Assembly (NCBI GenBank): GCA_944324185.1
Contig: CALUVI010000016.1
Coordinates: 1 to 40,934 of the forward strand
Direction of reading: 5' to 3'
From: Candidatus Gastranaerophilales bacterium
GTDB taxonomy: Bacteria; Cyanobacteriota; Vampirovibrionia; Gastranaerophilales; Gastranaerophilaceae
Length of the DNA: 40,934 nucleotides
Part shown: positions 2,595 to 40,408 of the stretch, in pieces
How the letters are laid out: each line of letters begins with the position of its first letter
Numbering within the stretch: position 1 is the first letter of the stretch
Made by a program: the position numbers and the translations under genes
The notes under the pieces: generated by a model
What the model saw: the letters and a program-made list of their open reading frames with translations, nothing else
Database searches by the model: none
What the model was told of the DNA's origin: nothing

Positions 2595-2670
2595 TGAATA
2601 ATGAGCTTGTAGTCTACAGGCTACGGGCTGCCCCCCCTAATCCGGCAATATATTTTATTCTGCGACTTTA

Positions 2671-3911: not shown

Positions 3912-6425
3912 CTATTCCTCTTTTGAACCCTCATCCTGAGTTTCCTGCGGTTTTTCTTCTTCGCCGCCGGCTTTTCTCTCAAAAACAATTTCATCATCTT
4001 TGAGTTTCAATACTATTGTATCACCCGGTTTATATGCGTTTGTAAGAATTTCCTCCGCAAGCGGATCTTCTATTTTCTTCTGAATCAAACGTCTCAAAGG
4101 TCTTGCGCCGTAAGCCTCATTGTAACCGTCTTTGGCAAGGAAATCTTTAACTTCATCCGTAACTTCGATGGAAATTTCACGTTCTGACAAGCGTTTGAAC
4201 AAATCTTTCATCATCAAATCTACAATCTGACGGATTTCTTCCTTACTCAGGTGTGAGAATACTATTATATCATCAATACGGTTCAAAAATTCCGGTCTGA
4301 AAGCTTTTTTAAGCTCTTCGTTAACTGTTTCTTTAAGCTTTTCATACTTATCTTTCTTAGCATCATCTGCAGCAGAGAAGCCGAGTCTGCCCTGAGTTGC
4401 AATCATACTTGCACCGACATTTGATGTCATAATAATTACTGTATTTTTGAAATTAATATGGCGACCTTTTGCATCAGTTAAACGCCCGTCATCAAGGATT
4501 TGGAGCATTATATTGAATACATCGGGGTGAGCCTTTTCAATTTCATCAAAAAGAATAACAGAATAAGGTTTCTTTCTGACTAATTCTGACAGGTGACCGC
4601 CATCATCATATCCGACATATCCCGGGGGAGAACCGATAAGTTTTGCAGTAGAATGTTTTTCCATAAATTCTGACATATCTACTCTTATCATATTATCTTC
4701 ACTGCCAAATATAGCTTCAGCAAGCGCTTTTGCAAGCTCTGTTTTACCGACGCCTGTAGGACCTGAGAAAATGAAGCTCCCTATCGGTCTGTTTGGTGAT
4801 TTTAACCCGACTCTTGCACGTCTGATTGCTTTAGCAATAGCAGTAACTGCATCTGATTGACCAATAACTCTTGCATGCAAAGTATCTTCTAATCTTAACA
4901 GTCTTTCAGATTCGCCTTCCGTAAGTTTGGTTACAGGAACACCGGTCATTGTTGCAATAACTTCCGCAACATCATCTTCGGTTACGGTAGGTTTGTTAGC
5001 GTCATTCTGGCGTCTCCACTCCTCAGAAACTTCACGGATTCTGTCCTTCATATTAGCTTCATCATCTCTGAGAGCGGAAGCACGTTCAAATTCCTGATTT
5101 CTGATTGCGTCTTCTTTTTCTTTGATAATTTCTCTTAATTCTTTATCAAGCTCCTTGCCTTCCGGAGAAAGCGTGCAAACTTTTAATCTGACTTTAGAAC
5201 TTGCCTCATCTATAACGTCGATAGCTTTGTCCGGCAAAAATCGGTCGTTTATGTATTTGCTGGACAATTTTGTTGCCGCAACAATTGCTTCATCAGAAAT
5301 ATGAAGGTTATGGTGTTCTTCATATTTGAATTTTAAACCTCTGATAATCTCAATTGTTTCATCAATGGAAGGTTCTTCAATGATTACAGGCTGGAATCTT
5401 CTTTCAAGCGCAGAGTCTTTTTCAATATACTTTCTGTACTCGTCGGAAGTTGTAGCGCCGATAACCTGAATTTCGCCTCTGGATAGAGCCGGCTTTAAAA
5501 TATTTGCAGCGTCAATTGCGCCTTCTGCAGCACCGGCACCGATAAGAGTGTGCATCTCATCAATAACAAGAATTACATTTCCTGCCTGACGGATTTCGTC
5601 CATAATTTTCTTTAAGCGTTCTTCAAATTCGCCTCTGTATTTTGTACCGGCAATCAAAAGCCCCATGTCAAGCTGGATAATCTTTTTGTTTTCCAGAATA
5701 TCAGGAACTTCACTGTTAACAATTCTAATCGCCAAACCTTCCGCAACGGCAGTTTTACCGACACCGGGTTCGCCTAACAGAACAGGATTGTTCTTTGTTC
5801 TTCTTGCAAGAATCTGAATAACACGTTCAATTTCTTTTTCTCTTCCTACAACAGGATCAAGTCTCTGCTCTGCAGCAGCCTGAGTCAAATCTGTTCCAAA
5901 TTCGTCAAGGCTAGGGGTTTTAACTTTATTTGCCTGAGAAGATGATGAAGATGACGATGTTCCGACTCCTGCACCTGTAGTCTGAGGCTTAGAGTCACCA
6001 AGCATTTTAACGACATTGCTTCTTACCTTATTTAAATCAACACCCAGATTTTCAAGAACTCTTGCTGCAACACCTTCGCCTTCTCTAATCAAACCTAAAA
6101 GCAGGTGTTCCGTTCCGATATAATTATGACCAAGCTGTCGGGCTTCATCCCAGGACAATTCCAAAACCCTTTTAGCTCTCGGGGTAAACGGAATTTCTAC
6201 AGCAACAAAGCCTGAACCGCGACCGATAATTTTTTCCACCTCAATTCTGGCGTCTTTGAGGTTAACTCCCATTGACTTGAGAGTCTTGGCAGCAATCCCC
6301 GTACCTTCTCCGATAAGCCCGAGAAGCACTTGTTCCGTACCTACAAAGTTATGCCCGAGGCGTCTGGCTTCTTCCTGAGCCAGCATAATAACTTTTATCG
6401 CCTTTTCAGTAAAACGTTCGAACAT
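3912..6425 (-). CDS. clpC: ClpC, Hsp100 ATPase of the Clp protease
   Basis: Hexameric AAA+ unfoldase that feeds proteins into ClpP. The 837-residue chain shows two Clp N-domain repeats (residues 1-145) and a Ser-rich linker. The first AAA module has Walker A GEPGVGKT (about 217-224) and Walker [13 protein letters not shown] middle region with a UVR-type coiled segment near 420-460 follows. The second AAA module has Walker A GPTGVGKT (about 555) and Walker [15 protein letters not shown], then a C-terminal D2-small domain and an acidic tail. The UVR-containing middle and length separate it from ClpA and ClpB. It is preceded by a promoter and AGAGGA 9 bases from the ATG. It stands alone, without ctsR or mcsAB neighbours, as in cyanobacteria. 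Confidence 0.97.
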
Positions 6426-6466
6426 TTAAAAAATTCCTCTTCTTATAAATATATTTATGTAAGTTT

Positions 6467-6495
6467 ATATTACAAAAAAATGGCACTTTTTTCAA
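6467..6495 (-). promoter_or_regulatory. clpC promoter
   Basis: On the minus strand TTGAAA (6490-6495), a 17-base spacer and TAATAT (6467-6472) make a good sigma-70 promoter about 40 bases upstream of the clpC start. A run of nine G/C (6496-6504), the end of a tandem repeat, abuts the -35 directly. Confidence 0.65.
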
Positions 6496-6765
6496 GGGGG
6501 GGGGTAAATGTATTAGACTGGTAAGTACGACTACAAGCTATAAGTCCTACGGAAATAGGGGTAAATGCATTAGGCTGGTAAGTAAGACTACAAGCTATAA
6601 GTCCTACGGAAATAGGGGTAAATGTATCGGGCTGGCAGGTAAGACCACAAGCTATAAGTTCTGCATGGGAGAGGGAATGTATCGGGCTGGTAAGTAAGAC
6701 CATAAGCTATAAGTTCTGCATGGGAGAGGGAATGTATCGGGCTGGCAGGTAAAACTTCATGCATA
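6496..6765. repeat. Tandem repeat, five units of 57/57/55/55 bp
   Basis: The word taaatg or gaatg followed by tatcgggctggtaagtaag recurs at 6505, 6562, 6619, about 6676 and 6731. Each unit ends with cacaagctataagt. The first unit is preceded by nine consecutive G. Partial units occur at 10319-10360, 16378-16432, 16691-16800 (inverted) and 37796-37820 (inverted), so it is a dispersed family. It is not a CRISPR: the whole unit repeats and there are no unique spacers. The minus-strand frame through it is a translated repeat. Confidence 0.9.
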
Positions 6766-6804
6766 ATTTATGGTGCGGAGCAAGCTCCACACTACTGCTA
6801 AAAC

Positions 6805-7212
6805 TTAATTATTGCTAATACCTTCGGCAAGAAGCATCCCCTCTATAACCGAGTGTAATTTTAATAATGACTGCTTATCTTTATTTAAAGCATTTATAGC
6901 CAAATTGATAAAATTTATTTTATTAGGATACATTTTTATTTGTTGAATTTTGTATAAAATATCATCTTTTAACAAGTCTGCTTTATTTTCATTTCTAAAT
7001 TCTTTAAAATCAAATAAGTCCATAGGTTCTACACAAAAGACTTCACAGATATGTTCAAGAGTTTTAAATGACGGGAAACTCTTACCTGTTTCAATTCTTA
7101 CAAGCTGCCTCTGGTTGATACCAACCATTTCTGACAGTTTCTCCTGAGTCAACCCGCTCGACAGGCGTAATGTTTTTATTTTTACACCTAAATAATCTTT
7201 TATGACCGCCAT
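6805..7212 (-). CDS. XRE-family transcriptional regulator (Cro/C1-type HTH)
   Basis: DNA-binding regulator of 135 residues. Residues 8-63 form the helix-turn-helix domain (LGVKIKTLRLSSGLTQEKLS, then VGINQRQLVRIETGKSFPSF). The C-terminal 70 residues are helical and could be a dimerisation domain; no enzyme or ligand domain is recognisable. It is divergent from the glycosyltransferase gene at 7408, with 195 bases between them, so autoregulation or control of that gene is possible but unproven. The tandem repeat lies just past its 3' end. A phage or toxin-antitoxin origin cannot be excluded, but no partner gene is adjacent. Confidence 0.88.
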   Translation of the reverse strand: MAVIKDYLGVKIKTLRLSSGLTQEKLSEMVGINQRQLVRIETGKSFPSFKTLEHICEVFCVEPMDLFDFKEFRNENKADLLKDDILYKIQQIKMYPNKINFINLAINALNKDKQSLLKLHSVIEGMLLAEGISNN

Positions 7213-7407
7213 TATTTATCCTCATCAATATAATATGTGTAAATAATAAATATTAACAGGACTTATCAGTGCATAAATTACCGATATGCATAAGACATTT
7301 AATGACTTAGACTCCAACCATATAGATTATATTGAACTTTTTATAAATTTATAGCATTATGCTAATATGACATCGTGTGTCTTTTATAAATTTAAGAGTG
7401 CAAGCCC

Positions 7408-8623
7408 ATGAAAATTATCAAGATTGAAAATAAACCAGATGACTTTTTCCCGCGAATAATTATTCAAATTTTAGGACTCAAATTTGTTTTTGCAAATAAA
7501 AATATTTATTATAAGAAGTTTCAAATATTTCACAAATACGATAAACCTGCAGCTGTAATTTTTGACCATGTTTGGGGCGGCGGCACCGAAACTTTCTTTT
7601 ATAATTTTATTGAATCTATATTGAATCCGGTAAACCGGATTCAATATCATCCAAAATATAACTTATACAAAATTTCTATTTTGTATAAAGGATTAACTTC
7701 CATTTTTTATGAAAAAGACATTGAACACCTGTTTAAAATCCTTAAACAAGTAGAAATTTCAGAAATAGTTGTTAACAATCTTGTCGGTTATACCTGTACA
7801 AAAGATGTTTTGAGAAATATCAAAGAATTAGCCGGAGCAAAAAATATAAAAACAACATGTATGTTGCATGATTTCTATCCGATTTGTCCGGTACACACTC
7901 TGACAACTAAAGATAACGAGTATTGTAATCTTAATTTTGACAGAACGTATTGTAATATCTGTGCACAAGATAATAAACATCCCGCAATCAAAATTAGTGC
8001 AACCTATAAAAATTTTGACATTTGTGAATGGCGAGATATGTGGAGAGATTTTTTATCTTCTATGGATGAAGTACGGACATTCTGCCCGTCAGCAAAAAAT
8101 ATTCTACTTAGAGTTTATCCGGAAATTTCATCTAAGATAACTGTTGTACCCCACAAAGTTAAACCATTCATACAAAAGGATAAAATTCATGTCGGTATAT
8201 TAGGAACTCTAGGAAAGACAAAAGGTTTGAATGTTATTTCAGATTTTCTAAAATATCTTGACGAAAACAATATTAATAATATCCAACTTTATATTATCGG
8301 AGATTTTCAGAGCAATATAAAAAATAAAAAAATGACGATTTTAGGTTCTTATAAAAGAAAAAATTTACCTGAAATTCTTCTCAAAAATAATATTGATATT
8401 GTTTTTATACCGTCAATATGGCCTAGAAACATTCTCTTATACAACAGCAGAAGCAATAAGTCTCAACTATCCTGTTGCCTGTTTTGATATAGGAGGCCAG
8501 GCTGACCAAGTCAGAAATTATAAAAAGGGGATTATTCTTAAATCACCGCGGGACATCACAGATATTTATAATTCAATAATAAATTTTAAAAGAGAAATTG
8601 AAAACCAAATCCCCTTACATTAG
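7408..8623 (+). pseudogene. Glycosyltransferase (GT4-like) interrupted by a one-base frameshift
   Basis: A GT-B type glycosyltransferase probably acting on a surface polysaccharide. The first frame runs 7408-8487 and contains a GGGTETF motif (residues about 56-62), a Cys-rich CNICAQ segment, and the C-terminal nucleotide-binding lobe starting HVGILGTLGKTKGLNVISD. At 8425 one extra A moves the reading frame. The family motif then continues in the other frame as ETFSYTTAEAISLNYPVACF (from 8426) to the stop at 8623, giving PSIWP-ETFSYTTAEA without loss. As written the gene lacks its donor-binding Glu motif in frame. This could be a real recent mutation, programmed slippage (no slippery heptamer seen), or an assembly error. 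The start has only a weak aagag upstream. Confidence 0.82.
7618..7647. repeat. Perfect 14 bp inverted repeat inside the glycosyltransferase gene
   Basis: Arms atattgaatccggt (7618-7631) and accggattcaatat (7634-7647) are separated by two bases. It is translated, and nothing downstream resembles a terminator tail. A related hairpin with atccggtaaat arms lies at 10370-10396. Confidence 0.8.
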
Positions 8624-8685
8624 CTGAAGCAGTCAGGTATTTTCCTTTTAGAAAAAGCCGTTCAGGTTTTGCCTGATATTAGAAC

Positions 8686-9588
8686 TTAATCAAAAAGAGC
8701 TTGAATAAACTCTTTTGAATCAAAGTCTTTTAAATCTTCCATTTTTTCACCGACACCGACAAGTTTAACCGGAAGCCCCATTTCTTTTGCAATAGCAAGC
8801 ACTATCGCACCTTTGGCAGAACCGTCAAGCTTAGTTAGCGCAACCGCAGTCAAATTTACACACTCTTTAAAGACCTTTGCCTGCTGCAAGCCGTTCTGTC
8901 CGGTATTGGCATCTATTACCAGAATACTCTCTCTCAAATCCTCCGGCGCATTTTTATCAATGACATTTTTAATTTTTGTCAATTCTTCCATTAAATTGAA
9001 TTTATTTTGCAGGCGTCCTGCCGTATCCACAAGAATTACGTCATATTTTTCATTTCTTGCCTTTTGTATAGCTTCATAAACAACAGATGCCGGATCTGCC
9101 TTGTCACGTCTTACAATGTCAGCCCCCGAACGCTTAGACCAGATATCAACCTGTTCTTCCGCAGCAGCTCTGAAAGTATCACCCGCAGCAATCAAAACCC
9201 GTTTCCCTTCTTGTTTAAAGCGATAAGCCATCTTACCGATAAGGGTAGTTTTACCTGCCCCGTTAACGCCTGTTACAAAATAAATATTTAAAGCATTTTC
9301 TCTATAATCTAACTTACAAGCACCTGCTTCATCAAGAATTTTAAAAAATTCATTCCGCAAAAACTCTTTAACCTCCGAAGGTTTAATTCTCGTTTGCTTG
9401 CGGAGTTTGTCTACAAGTTCGGCGGCATAATCCACGCCCAAATCCGCGCTGATTAATAAATCTTCCATATCATCAAGGACAAAGTCCGAAAATTCTTCCT
9501 CATCAGAAACCACACTCACGACGTTCCCAACCAGAGCCTGTGCGGTTTTTGATACAGTTGATTTTAGTTTGTCAAAAAAGTTAAACAT
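8686..9588 (-). CDS. ftsY: FtsY, signal recognition particle receptor GTPase
   Basis: Membrane-docking GTPase that receives SRP-ribosome complexes for co-translational insertion. The 300-residue protein has the N domain (residues 1-95) and the G domain, with G1 GVNGAGKT (107-114), GDTFRAAAEEQ (136-146), G3 DTAGRLQ (188-194) and G4 TKLDG (252-256), then the GLPVKLVGVGEKMEDL closing motif. It lacks the long acidic A domain of the E. coli protein, as is usual in Gram-positives and cyanobacterial relatives. It follows nusB after three bases on the same strand, so the two are co-transcribed. No dedicated promoter is visible between them. Confidence 0.97.
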   Translation of the reverse strand: MFNFFDKLKSTVSKTAQALVGNVVSVVSDEEEFSDFVLDDMEDLLISADLGVDYAAELVDKLRKQTRIKPSEVKEFLRNEFFKILDEAGACKLDYRENALNIYFVTGVNGAGKTTLIGKMAYRFKQEGKRVLIAAGDTFRAAAEEQVDIWSKRSGADIVRRDKADPASVVYEAIQKARNEKYDVILVDTAGRLQNKFNLMEELTKIKNVIDKNAPEDLRESILVIDANTGQNGLQQAKVFKECVNLTAVALTKLDGSAKGAIVLAIAKEMGLPVKLVGVGEKMEDLKDFDSKEFIQALFD

Positions 9589-9591
9589 GTT

Positions 9592-10251
9592 CTATTTCAA
9601 GCCGTTTTCTACAATAACTTTTGCTAAAATACCATTTACAAAAGAAGATGAATCCTCTGTTGAATATTTTTTTGCAAGTTCTACCGCTTCATCTACAACA
9701 ACCTTGATTGGCGCATTTTTTATAAAGAGAAGCTCGGTAATTGCTATTCGTAAAATATCTTTATCCATTTTTACCAGTCTTGAAATATCCCATCCGTTTG
9801 CATATTTCTGAATTTCCGCATCAATTTCTTTCTGGTGGAGTTTAAACTGTTCCGCTATTTCTACTGTATAATTCTTAACTTCCGACTGATTTTCCAAAGT
9901 TGCAAACTCTGCAATCTCAAGAGCCAGAATTGATTTTTCTGCAACATCTATCATTATATCGACTTTTTTAATCATCTCATCTGTCATAGGAATTTTAACC
10001 GGCTTATTTTTAGCACCCATAGGTCTTGCAAGGTTAGATTCGTCTTCTGCTTCATAAGTATCAAGCATGTCTTTAATATCAATCAAAGACCCGACTGTAA
10101 GTTTTAATTCCTCTGACGCAGAGTTAGAAAGAATTCTAACTGATTTCAACATAATATCTTCAAAGTCTTTTCTGGAATACTTTGAAATCTCTTTTTCAAA
10201 TTGGGAAAATAATATAAGTGCCAATTCTCTTGCTGCACGTCTTGCCTGCAT
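9592..10251 (-). CDS. nusB: NusB transcription antitermination factor, enlarged
   Basis: Binds boxA RNA with NusE/S10 to support antitermination, chiefly of rRNA operons. The start MQARRAARELALILFSQFE and the C-terminal VDEAVELAKKYSTEDSSSFV plus VNGILAKV are standard NusB. At 219 residues it is about 80 longer than the usual 140. The extra length is an internal, mostly helical, charged insertion near residues 22-105. The gene opens a nusB-ftsY operon with CAGGAGAT upstream of the ATG and its own promoter. The insertion is intact in frame, so I take it as a lineage trait rather than damage. Confidence 0.93.
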   Translation of the reverse strand: MQARRAARELALILFSQFEKEISKYSRKDFEDIMLKSVRILSNSASEELKLTVGSLIDIKDMLDTYEAEDESNLARPMGAKNKPVKIPMTDEMIKKVDIMIDVAEKSILALEIAEFATLENQSEVKNYTVEIAEQFKLHQKEIDAEIQKYANGWDISRLVKMDKDILRIAITELLFIKNAPIKVVVDEAVELAKKYSTEDSSSFVNGILAKVIVENGLK

Positions 10252-10287
10252 ATTTTATCTCCTGTAATTTATTTACTTTTTGAAATT

Positions 10288-10316
10288 ATAATATCATAAA
10301 GAAACAGTACGAGCAA
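10288..10316 (-). promoter_or_regulatory. nusB-ftsY promoter
   Basis: On the minus strand TTGCTC (10311-10316), a 17-base spacer and TATTAT (10288-10293) lie about 40 bases before nusB. A 12-base G/C homopolymer (10319-10330) begins two bases upstream of the -35, the same arrangement as at clpC. Confidence 0.55.
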
Positions 10317-10318
10317 AA

Positions 10319-10504
10319 GGGGGGGGGGGGAAATGTATTAGGATGGTAAGTAAGATTGTAGATACAAGGATCCGGTAAATCAAAAATTTACCGGATTCTA
10401 CAGACTTTACACAAAATAGACTCGAAATATAGCTATAATGTCATTCCGAACTTGTTTCGGAATCTTGCCGGTGATAAGACCCTAAAACCGGTTCAGGGGG
10501 GGGC
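10319..10504. repeat. Cluster of small dispersed repeats upstream of the hydrolase gene
   Basis: The 353-base gap 10252-10604 contains four things: a G12 tract followed by one partial unit of the 55-57 bp repeat (aaatgtattaggatggtaag, from 10331); an 11 bp hairpin (10370-10380/10386-10396); the palindrome attccgaa/ttcggaat (10443-10463), a motif type widespread in bacterial intergenic repeats; and a second G run (10497-10503). I see no gene before 10605. Confidence 0.7.
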
Positions 10505-16377: not shown

Positions 16378-16830
16378 CAGTCATTGCAAGGGGTAAATAT
16401 ATCGGGCTGGTATTAAGACCTCCTGAAGTGCCGTCATTGCGAGGAGCGGAAGCGACGCGGCAATCCATTCTATTTAATTGTCACTTTTCCCCTCGCCCCT
16501 TGTGGGAGAGCGGATTTTCGGTAGGGCGACGGCTTTGCCCAGCCCGTAAGGTGGAGGAAAGCTGTGAACTTTCCGACACCCCGAATAATCCAAGAGAGGG
16601 AGCAGCCGTTCTTGAGCCGGAAGGCAAAAGTTACGGATGCGGGTGAGGGGTTTTTGTTCTGGATTGCTTCGGGCTAAATGACTACTCCCTCGCAATGACG
16701 CCCGATTTATAGGCTTATCGACTAACCTAATTTATTTACCCCAGTAATGACGCCAACTAGTAGTTTTGCCGACCAGCCCAAACATTTACCCCCGCAATGA
16801 CGCGGAACTTTTAGGCTTACTTCATACCTG
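16378..16830. repeat. Nested composite repeat with inverted flanks
   Basis: From the left: one 54 bp unit (gtcattgc at 16378 to gtcattgc at 16432) containing ggtaaatatatcgggctgg; then gtcattgcgaggagcggaag, a motif family common in intergenic repeats of many bacteria; then a GC-rich core (about 16488-16655) starting cccctcgcccc and ending gggtgagggg, related to 2071-2280 and 37527-37725. On the right, in inverted orientation, come ggattgcttcgggc, cctcgcaatgacg, and two units of about 50-52 bp containing ccagcccaaacatttacccc. No gene is supported between 16207 and 16844; frames here are repeat-derived. Confidence 0.8.
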
Positions 16831-37494: not shown

Positions 37495-37820
37495 AAATGA
37501 GAGAACGCGCGTTTTCATCCGATTAACGCGTTCCCCTCGCCCCTTTGCGGGAGAGCGGATTTGCGGACGGACGACACGAACGTCAGAGAGTTAGTCCGGA
37601 TAGCGAACGGATTGAGCCTGCAGTAGCTGTACTCCAATGGCGAAACTCCGTGAGCGTGGAGTAAATCAAAGACAGGGAATAATTTCCTAGTGAGCGATTA
37701 GCGAACTTAGAAATTCGGGTGAGGAGCTAGGCAGAGGTAAGTTATAGAGATTCTTCGAACTCCAGTCCTTAGAATGACGGCACTCCGGATGTTATACAAA
37801 CCAACCCGATACATTTCTGC
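37495..37820. repeat. MITE-like repeat (inverted copy) and repeat fragments
   Basis: 37527-37725 is an inverted, diverged copy of the element at 2071-2280 (cccctcgcccctttgcggga at the left, cgggtgagga at the right; ccggatagcgaacggattga inside). A fragment of the 55-57 bp family (ccaacccgatacatttct) lies at 37801-37818. The remainder of 37340-37884 contains no gene I can support. Confidence 0.75.
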
Positions 37821-37884
37821 TTCTTGCTCACCTGATTATTTAACCACTTGATTACAATCAGAAAATACATTTCTCCGTCCCCCC

Positions 37885-38549: not shown

Positions 38550-38672
38550 TTTTTTATTGTTTTTTATTAACCTCAAATTATACAAAAAATGTTTGAACGG
38601 GACAAAAATATCTCCAAAGCCTTTGCGCCGTTGAGCCGCCGCTCTCAGCTAGCCCCCGCTTGAATCCGCTGA

Positions 38673-38844
38673 CAAGACTTTGACTTGTGCTGAATCTTAA
38701 TTCTCACAATGACAGGTAGTTTACCAATGAGGGTGACAAGTAATTTTAATTAAAGTATTGAATGTTGACTTATGTCACCCGACAATATGTTCTTTTCTTT
38801 TTGGTTACTTTTTCTTTTTAGTAAAGAAAAAGTCATAAACTGGA
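38673..38844. repeat. 172 bp direct repeat, left copy
   Basis: Matches 40237-40408 with a constant offset of 1564 bases, no gaps and only a few substitutions. It contains the inverted repeat gggtgac/gtcaccc and the hairpin actttttcttt/aaagaaaaagt, a type of intergenic repeat common across bacteria. The region 38550-38672 holds degenerate repeat sequence; I see no gene in 38550-38952. Confidence 0.92.
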
Positions 38845-39890: not shown

Positions 39891-40247
39891 ATGACAAAGA
39901 AACATGGTTGCATTATCAAAATACCAACAAAAAAGGTTTCAAAAAAGGAAATTGAAGAAAAAAAGGGAAAAGCCCGTAAATTGCTTACTAAGTGGATTGC
40001 GCAAGAAATTTTTAGAAGAAGTGGAATTGATATAGACATGAATGAAGTCGAACTCTGGAAAGCCAGTCAACAAGCGAATTGCATGGCGAAGATACCAAAA
40101 AGTAAAAAATGTTTACAAAATCATGACAAAATTCAACCCTGTAAAACATTGATTTTACTGGGGTTTATCAAAAAGTTCGATTTTAAAATATACTTGAGAT
40201 GGCAGGAGTGTCTTACTCGCTCCCACTTGAACCTGGCAAGACTTTGA
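39891..40247 (+). CDS. Small uncharacterised protein, 3' end inside the direct repeat
   Basis: A 118-residue, Lys-rich protein starting MTKKHGCIIKIPTKKVSKKE with AAAGGAG six bases before the ATG. The first 80 residues are helical with EVELWKASQQANCMAKIPKS; no domain is recognised. The last few codons lie within the right 172 bp repeat (from 40237), and the Cys/Arg-rich ending does not look like a natural terminus. The gene may therefore have been truncated when the repeat was formed. It is divergent from dinD and may be controlled by the same palindrome. Confidence 0.55.
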   Translation: MTKKHGCIIKIPTKKVSKKEIEEKKGKARKLLTKWIAQEIFRRSGIDIDMNEVELWKASQQANCMAKIPKSKKCLQNHDKIQPCKTLILLGFIKKFDFKIYLRWQECLTRSHLNLARL

Positions 40248-40408
40248 CTTGTACAGAATCTTAATTCTCACAATGACAGGTAGTTTACCAATGAGGGTGA
40301 CAAGTAATTTTAATTAAAGTATTGAATGTTGACTTATGTCACCCGACAATATGTTCTTTTCTTTTTGATTACTTTTTCTTTTTAGTAAAGAAAAAGTCAT
40401 AAACTGGA
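40237..40408. repeat. 172 bp direct repeat, right copy
   Basis: The second copy of 38673-38844. The two copies bracket dinD and the small gene, giving a unit of 1,564 bp (one repeat plus contents). Confidence 0.92.

Follow-up and report, generated by a model that had tools for sequence, protein, structure and literature searches.

A dispersed repeat with a G-run head at the clpC and nusB promoters, at gene ends and in frame within genes of a Gastranaerophilales genus

Does a run of guanines that touches the promoter of clpC tune that gene, or is it simply the end of a repeat that came to rest there? We addressed this question in a 40,934-nucleotide stretch of DNA from Candidatus Gastranaerophilales bacterium (the window), which is contig C16 of a draft genome of 1,974,695 bases in 67 contigs (G000). 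An array of five direct units spans positions 6496–6755 on the plus strand. It begins with nine G (6496–6504) and continues with unit 1 (6505–6557), units 2 and 3, each with an inner run of four G (6558–6614 and 6615–6669), unit 4, in which the G run is not followed by T (GAGAGGGAATG; 6670–6724), and a truncated unit 5 (6725–6755), at spacings of 57, 57, 55 and 55 bp. Read on the minus strand, nine C run directly, with 0 nt between, into the clpC promoter TTGAAA-17-TAATAT (6467–6495), which is conserved in the genus and lies 70 nt ahead of the start of clpC (3912–6425, minus strand; Pfam domains Clp_N, AAA_2 and ClpB_D2-small). Further along, a single unit headed by twelve G (10319–10330, plus strand; remainder 10331–10375, its far end, which merges into unrelated sequence, estimated by eye) is separated by two T's (minus strand) from the putative nusB promoter TTGCTC-17-TATTAT (10288–10316), upstream of nusB (9592–10251) and ftsY (8686–9588), all on the minus strand. 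A first-pass annotation had described both junctions, and both stand as described, as do the identities of clpC, nusB and ftsY, which Pfam matches bear out. The nusB −35 element is itself weak and was not reported by our promoter scan, and in an alignment of relatives read by eye, the −10 alone looks conserved; the insert at nusB was present only in this genome among 30 loci compared by eye.

The array is one member of a dispersed family. Its core, GGGGTAAATGTAT, was matched six times in the window and 0 times in 100 shuffles, and with up to three mismatches 77 times in the whole genome, compared with 8 times for a reversed control pattern. A profile search of 251 kb, comprising the loci around repeat and G-run matches (12.7% of the genome), recovered 141 units at E<0.01, and the best hit in reversed sequence reached only E 5.1; the shuffle, reversed-pattern and reversed-sequence controls thus exclude chance. 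By our own count the genome holds 25 distinct tracts of at least nine G, 18 of which lead into the family as judged by eye. Among 34 genomes of the genus, this one included, BLAST detected the long unit in 9, and among 23 others in 0. Elsewhere in the window we found a unit with four G followed by a CGTC-type palindrome (CGTCATTGCGAGG...GCAATCCA; 16390–16470, plus strand), two more tandem units (16690–16797, minus strand), a diverged single unit that lacks the G run (37761–37823, minus strand) and a junction of seven G whose unit is missing (2631–2637, minus strand); at the identical base, the genome of a sister species, G028, has ten G and a full unit. CGTC-type palindromes joined to units, similar in tag and tail to RPE-4/6, were seen at 16421–16470 and at 20 places in the examined segments of this genome, and the last unit continues into GTCATTGCGAG in 17 of 73 cases. 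The window also contains tandem repeats of 171 bp and 135 bp and a duplicate of 176 nt that is 98% identical (1–312, 2325–2580, 38669–38844 and 40233–40408).

The unit is not palindromic, and 85 units showed no excess of folding (mean z of −0.42 and 0.03 on the two strands). An Rfam scan of window positions 6300–10500 returned no match and, given this and the absence of a folding excess, we rejected a structured RNA. No terminal inverted repeats were seen in the unit by eye. A literature search of open-licence PubMed Central, which is not proof of absence, brought up no paper that we recognised as describing the repeat.

One reading frame of the unit is open (GGKCIGLxxETTSLxxS), and units lie in frame within genes. 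In this genome, RadA contains three units and a further repeat between VLGGG and IVKGS, and G028 has two units at the same place; 27 of 29 RadA loci are uninterrupted. Residues 1–83 and 152–515 align with residues 1–84 and 84–449 of PDB 5lkm, so that the insert (residues 84–151) replaces nothing; GGG flanks it on both sides, which is ambiguous as a target-site duplication. GcvPB has three units near its N terminus in 2 of 26 loci, MnmE has one unit in G000 and three in G028 between identical flanks, and in-frame units were also present in CoaBC (G011 and G026) and RecJ (G011), the latter at the N terminus, where the true start codon is uncertain. Unit-head spacings in coding arrays were multiples of 3 in 15 of 15 cases (after two values outside the inserts, 183 and 767, had been dropped), compared with 5 of 44 pairs in non-coding arrays, in which spacings range from 49 to 62 bp. 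Copy number changes in frame-keeping steps at sites that exist uninterrupted in relatives. MnmE also contains a second, unrelated repeat (TPPPNPLPQGAG), likewise in frame and located downstream of the units (L307, which is MnmE of G028, and contig C30 of G000).

We next examined the position of the G end. A 5′ end was present in 117 units, of which 68 were array heads (37 in unique DNA and 31 in other repeats) and 49 were inner units. Runs of at least seven G were found in 16 of the 37 heads in unique DNA, in 1 of the 31 heads in other repeats and in 4 of the 49 inner units. With ORFs called by a simple longest-ORF rule, 17 of the 37 unique-flank heads, among which some visibly repeat-derived flanks remain, face gene 5′ ends, 16 face 3′ ends and 4 are undecided. 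The repeat had been proposed to insert preferentially beside promoters; given this balance, and with units also in frame inside genes, we rejected a special promoter bias. The related proposal that the G end faces promoters held in one respect, its closeness to the −35: at 9 of 12 scored junctions, no more than 4 nt separate the run from the start of the best −35, compared with 4.25 expected from shuffles (P 0.003), although promoter scores at most of the 12 were weak and no better than those of shuffles. These junctions were picked for runs of at least seven G (13 in all, 8 from the unit-head set and 5 from a second set, with 1 too short to score). Among the 16 heads that face 3′ ends, 10 are no more than 18 nt from the stop, and in 4 the final G of a TAG stop codon doubles as the first G of the run; by eye, heads also follow apparent terminator T-runs at C19:9436, C8:9825 and C8:28394.

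Bacterial intergenic DNA is short, and even a random insertion would always land near a gene, so that the edge position could be a by-product of gene density; the crudeness of ORF calling here adds to that concern. We nevertheless judge this explanation distinctly improbable. The junctions are exact, falling inside TAG and 0–4 nt from the −35, and at loci fetched by protein, a stop is found within 15 nt of the G side in 8 of 27 cases, compared with 0 of 22 for the other side. The corresponding counts for the in-genus stretches were 3 of 7 for the G side and 0 of 8 for the other (Fisher p 0.077), compared with 12.6% of random intergenic positions. Chance as an account of the boundary position is weakened by these counts. 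As the stop of Fba and of SMC is provided by the G run, insertion might have truncated these genes, a reading that we rejected: the C termini are of equal length in nearly all relatives examined, with two SMC proteins 4 residues longer.

Comparison with G028 allowed us to follow the tracts themselves. At the same junctions, tract lengths in G000 and G028 were 9 and 8 at clpC, 9 and 10 at C50:5939, and 7 and 10 at window position 2637; two more G000 tracts are interrupted by T in G028. Tracts were equal in RadA (5/5 and 5/5) and MnmE (4/4), and the first GcvPB tract goes from 4 to 7, a difference of one codon. The fba head, the smc head and the nusB unit have no counterpart in G028. The draft state of this genome (67 contigs) and the location of some tracts at the ends of contigs would be in line with G runs that are sequencing or assembly artefacts, but identical junctions recur in a second genome with other lengths and in-frame copies keep their frame, which makes an artefact extremely unlikely.

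Tract lengths in raw reads and other isolates had been put forward as the measure of variability. Between sister species they do differ; since the genomes compared are species and not strains, the differences show turnover, not switching. Promoter tuning or phase variation of clpC or nusB, as the first-pass annotation suggested, is possible. In its full form, the tracts would be contingency loci: by moving or changing the sequence immediately 5′ of the −35, slippage would tune clpC and nusB–ftsY. The runs of nine and twelve G at the upstream edge of the −35 and the junction lengths that differ between sister species are in keeping with this view. We think it quite unlikely, however, as the tract is upstream of the −35 and outside the spacer, so that a change of length need not alter the promoter, and roughly one head in two faces a gene 3′ end; moreover, the length comparison is cross-species and a metagenome-derived assembly may misjudge homopolymers. 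If tract length did affect clpC or nusB, it would be relevant to their regulation.

Other G tracts were also seen. A run of 11 G lies in frame in a long Ser/Ala/Gly-rich, secreted-looking ORF that has no Pfam match (L115:1308–3011, the same as G000 C40:16183–17886), and this ORF is a better candidate for classical phase variation than clpC or nusB. A run of 12 G follows CCTTC at G000 C2:37753–37764, near the start of a 339-amino-acid ORF of doubtful reality. G028 has a different dispersed G-run repeat, in which ...GCCCTC is followed by 9–14 G and TAAATCCCGCTATTAGC (L188, L195, L196, L200, L201, L203 and L207), with runs of 9, 11, 11, 11, 13, 13 and 14 within this one genome.

The head word of the repeat, GGGGTAAAT, reaches beyond the long unit and is enriched approximately 12–17-fold in the genus and approximately 2-fold outside it. 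In 174 loci of relatives fetched by protein (537,562 bases), it tops 15,780 ranked 9-mers, tied with its complement, with 70 copies seen and 4.2 expected; 18 of the 70 lie inside called ORFs, and some of these are conserved coding sequence. Twenty longer in-genus stretches, which overlap the clpC loci of the 9-mer set and in which the word ranks behind conserved clpC words, contain 22 copies compared with 1.8 expected, and 20 stretches from outside the genus contain 4 compared with 2.2. The word is also enriched in species that lack the long unit. At 15 of 30 loci, a run of at least four C lies no more than 3 nt from the clpC −35, compared with 98 of 26,280 background positions, and the 55–57-bp unit is present in only 2 of the 30, so that the C-run does not depend on the repeat. 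The fba stop is followed directly by a G run and TAAAT in 5 of the 28 loci that could be read, and the smc stop is followed directly by GGGTAAAT in two relatives; because the species share ancestry, neither the clpC C-run loci nor the recurrences at fba, smc and clpC are independent counts. At the fba 3′ end of species without a G-headed element, a TGCTACGCACGTAG-like block sits between the fba stop and a similar downstream region (L334–L337, L340, L344 and L346).

Such a distribution might mean that GGGGTAAAT is a functional word used throughout the genus, such as an uptake signal or the site of a nucleoid protein or regulator, with the long units as amplified carriers. Its place as the most over-represented 9-mer, its excess within the genus relative to outside, and its recurrence at the clpC −35 and behind the fba and smc stops in several species all point that way. 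Still, only 10 of the 20 in-genus stretches hold the word, a low density given that uptake words are usually denser; some of the 70 copies are explained by conserved coding sequence, and the word often stands in tandem micro-repeats, as selfish repeats do. We therefore consider a functional word unlikely. A bolder conjecture, which we hold only tentatively and would not bet on, is that GGGGTAAAT seeds DNA growth exactly at functional edges. Stop codons, terminator tails, −35 boxes and Gly codons would each acquire a G-headed element, by addition or from a template, with the G end always leading; template switching or addition of G without a template might be the means. The element would then be amplified into species-specific, translatable units of 12–57 bp.

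The explanation that we favour, with some reserve, is that the array belongs to a genus-specific dispersed repeat, non-autonomous and non-palindromic, which has a G-run head and probably spreads as selfish DNA, any effect on clpC or nusB being a side effect. Such a repeat would expand locally as direct repeats and persist where function is spared. Copies that cut into a promoter or gene would be removed by selection and the survivors would end at the last tolerated base. This would account for the position of the G run against the clpC and nusB promoters and, at other loci, against stops and apparent terminators. Copies could also persist in protein loops because one frame of the unit is open. 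Lengths would change as the G run slips and units undergo unequal exchange, and any influence on transcription of clpC or nusB would be incidental, with no dedicated switch. Purifying selection alone does not account for the edge being met by the G end and not by the opposite one, or for the greater length of the run at edges; enrichment of GGGGTAAAT without the long unit and the clpC C-run in half of the loci would fit a functional word as well. If selfish spread is correct, the junctions mark where purifying selection begins and could serve to locate the edges of promoters and terminators in an uncultured group, and the genus-wide word GGGGTAAAT offers a concrete lead.

How does this family compare with known systems? 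Homopolymeric contingency loci are familiar from Neisseria and Campylobacter, and the runs of 7–12 G near promoters resemble them; unlike those loci, the run here forms the head of a repeat with dispersed copies, is positioned upstream of the −35 and is found equally often behind genes. In-frame selfish repeats are best known from Rickettsia. By analogy, the mode of action is most likely to be that of Rickettsia palindromic elements (RPEs) and intragenic REPs, together with that of STAR direct repeats. In the portions of the literature available to us, RPEs are found in frame in genes (PMC10969869), and REPs lie near ORF 3′ ends, the termini of GTAG-REPs often supplying the TAG stop (PMC3733652). 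The present family likewise places short in-frame repeats, including multi-unit inserts, in many unrelated housekeeping genes, DNA-repair genes among them, and the frame stays open in RadA, GcvPB, MnmE, CoaBC and RecJ. It differs in that RPEs and REPs are palindromic and form hairpins; the unit here is non-palindromic, starts with a G run, is arranged head to tail in tandem and meets −35 elements as well as stops, and being non-palindromic, it was classed as neither RPE nor REP. The CGTC-type REPs, which include RPE-4 and RPE-6, are described in the accessible part of the same source as having a CGTC tag, an AT-first stem and a CCA tail, and the five phyla listed there for them do not include the present lineage (PMC3733652). 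Palindromes joined to the far end of some of our arrays begin with CGTCATTGC, end with GCAATCCA and fit this type as far as that description goes; they are neighbours fused to the unit and not the unit itself. STAR elements of Staphylococcus, in the part of the account available, combine a short G-rich direct repeat word with spacers of approximately 40 bp, vary in copy number per locus and occupy loci that differ by species (PMC3532100). Our repeat shares with them a G-rich direct-repeat word with spacers of at least 40 bp (spacings 49–62 bp) and intergenic copies. By eye, however, the unit sequence does not match the STAR consensus T(G/A/T)TGTTG(G/T)GGCCC(C/A), and we did not class it as STAR for this reason; STAR elements are described there as intergenic, whereas this family also lies in frame within genes, and its different word meets functional edges. 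What is new here is a non-palindromic, G-headed family that is both in frame and edge-hugging, in a lineage unrelated to Rickettsia.
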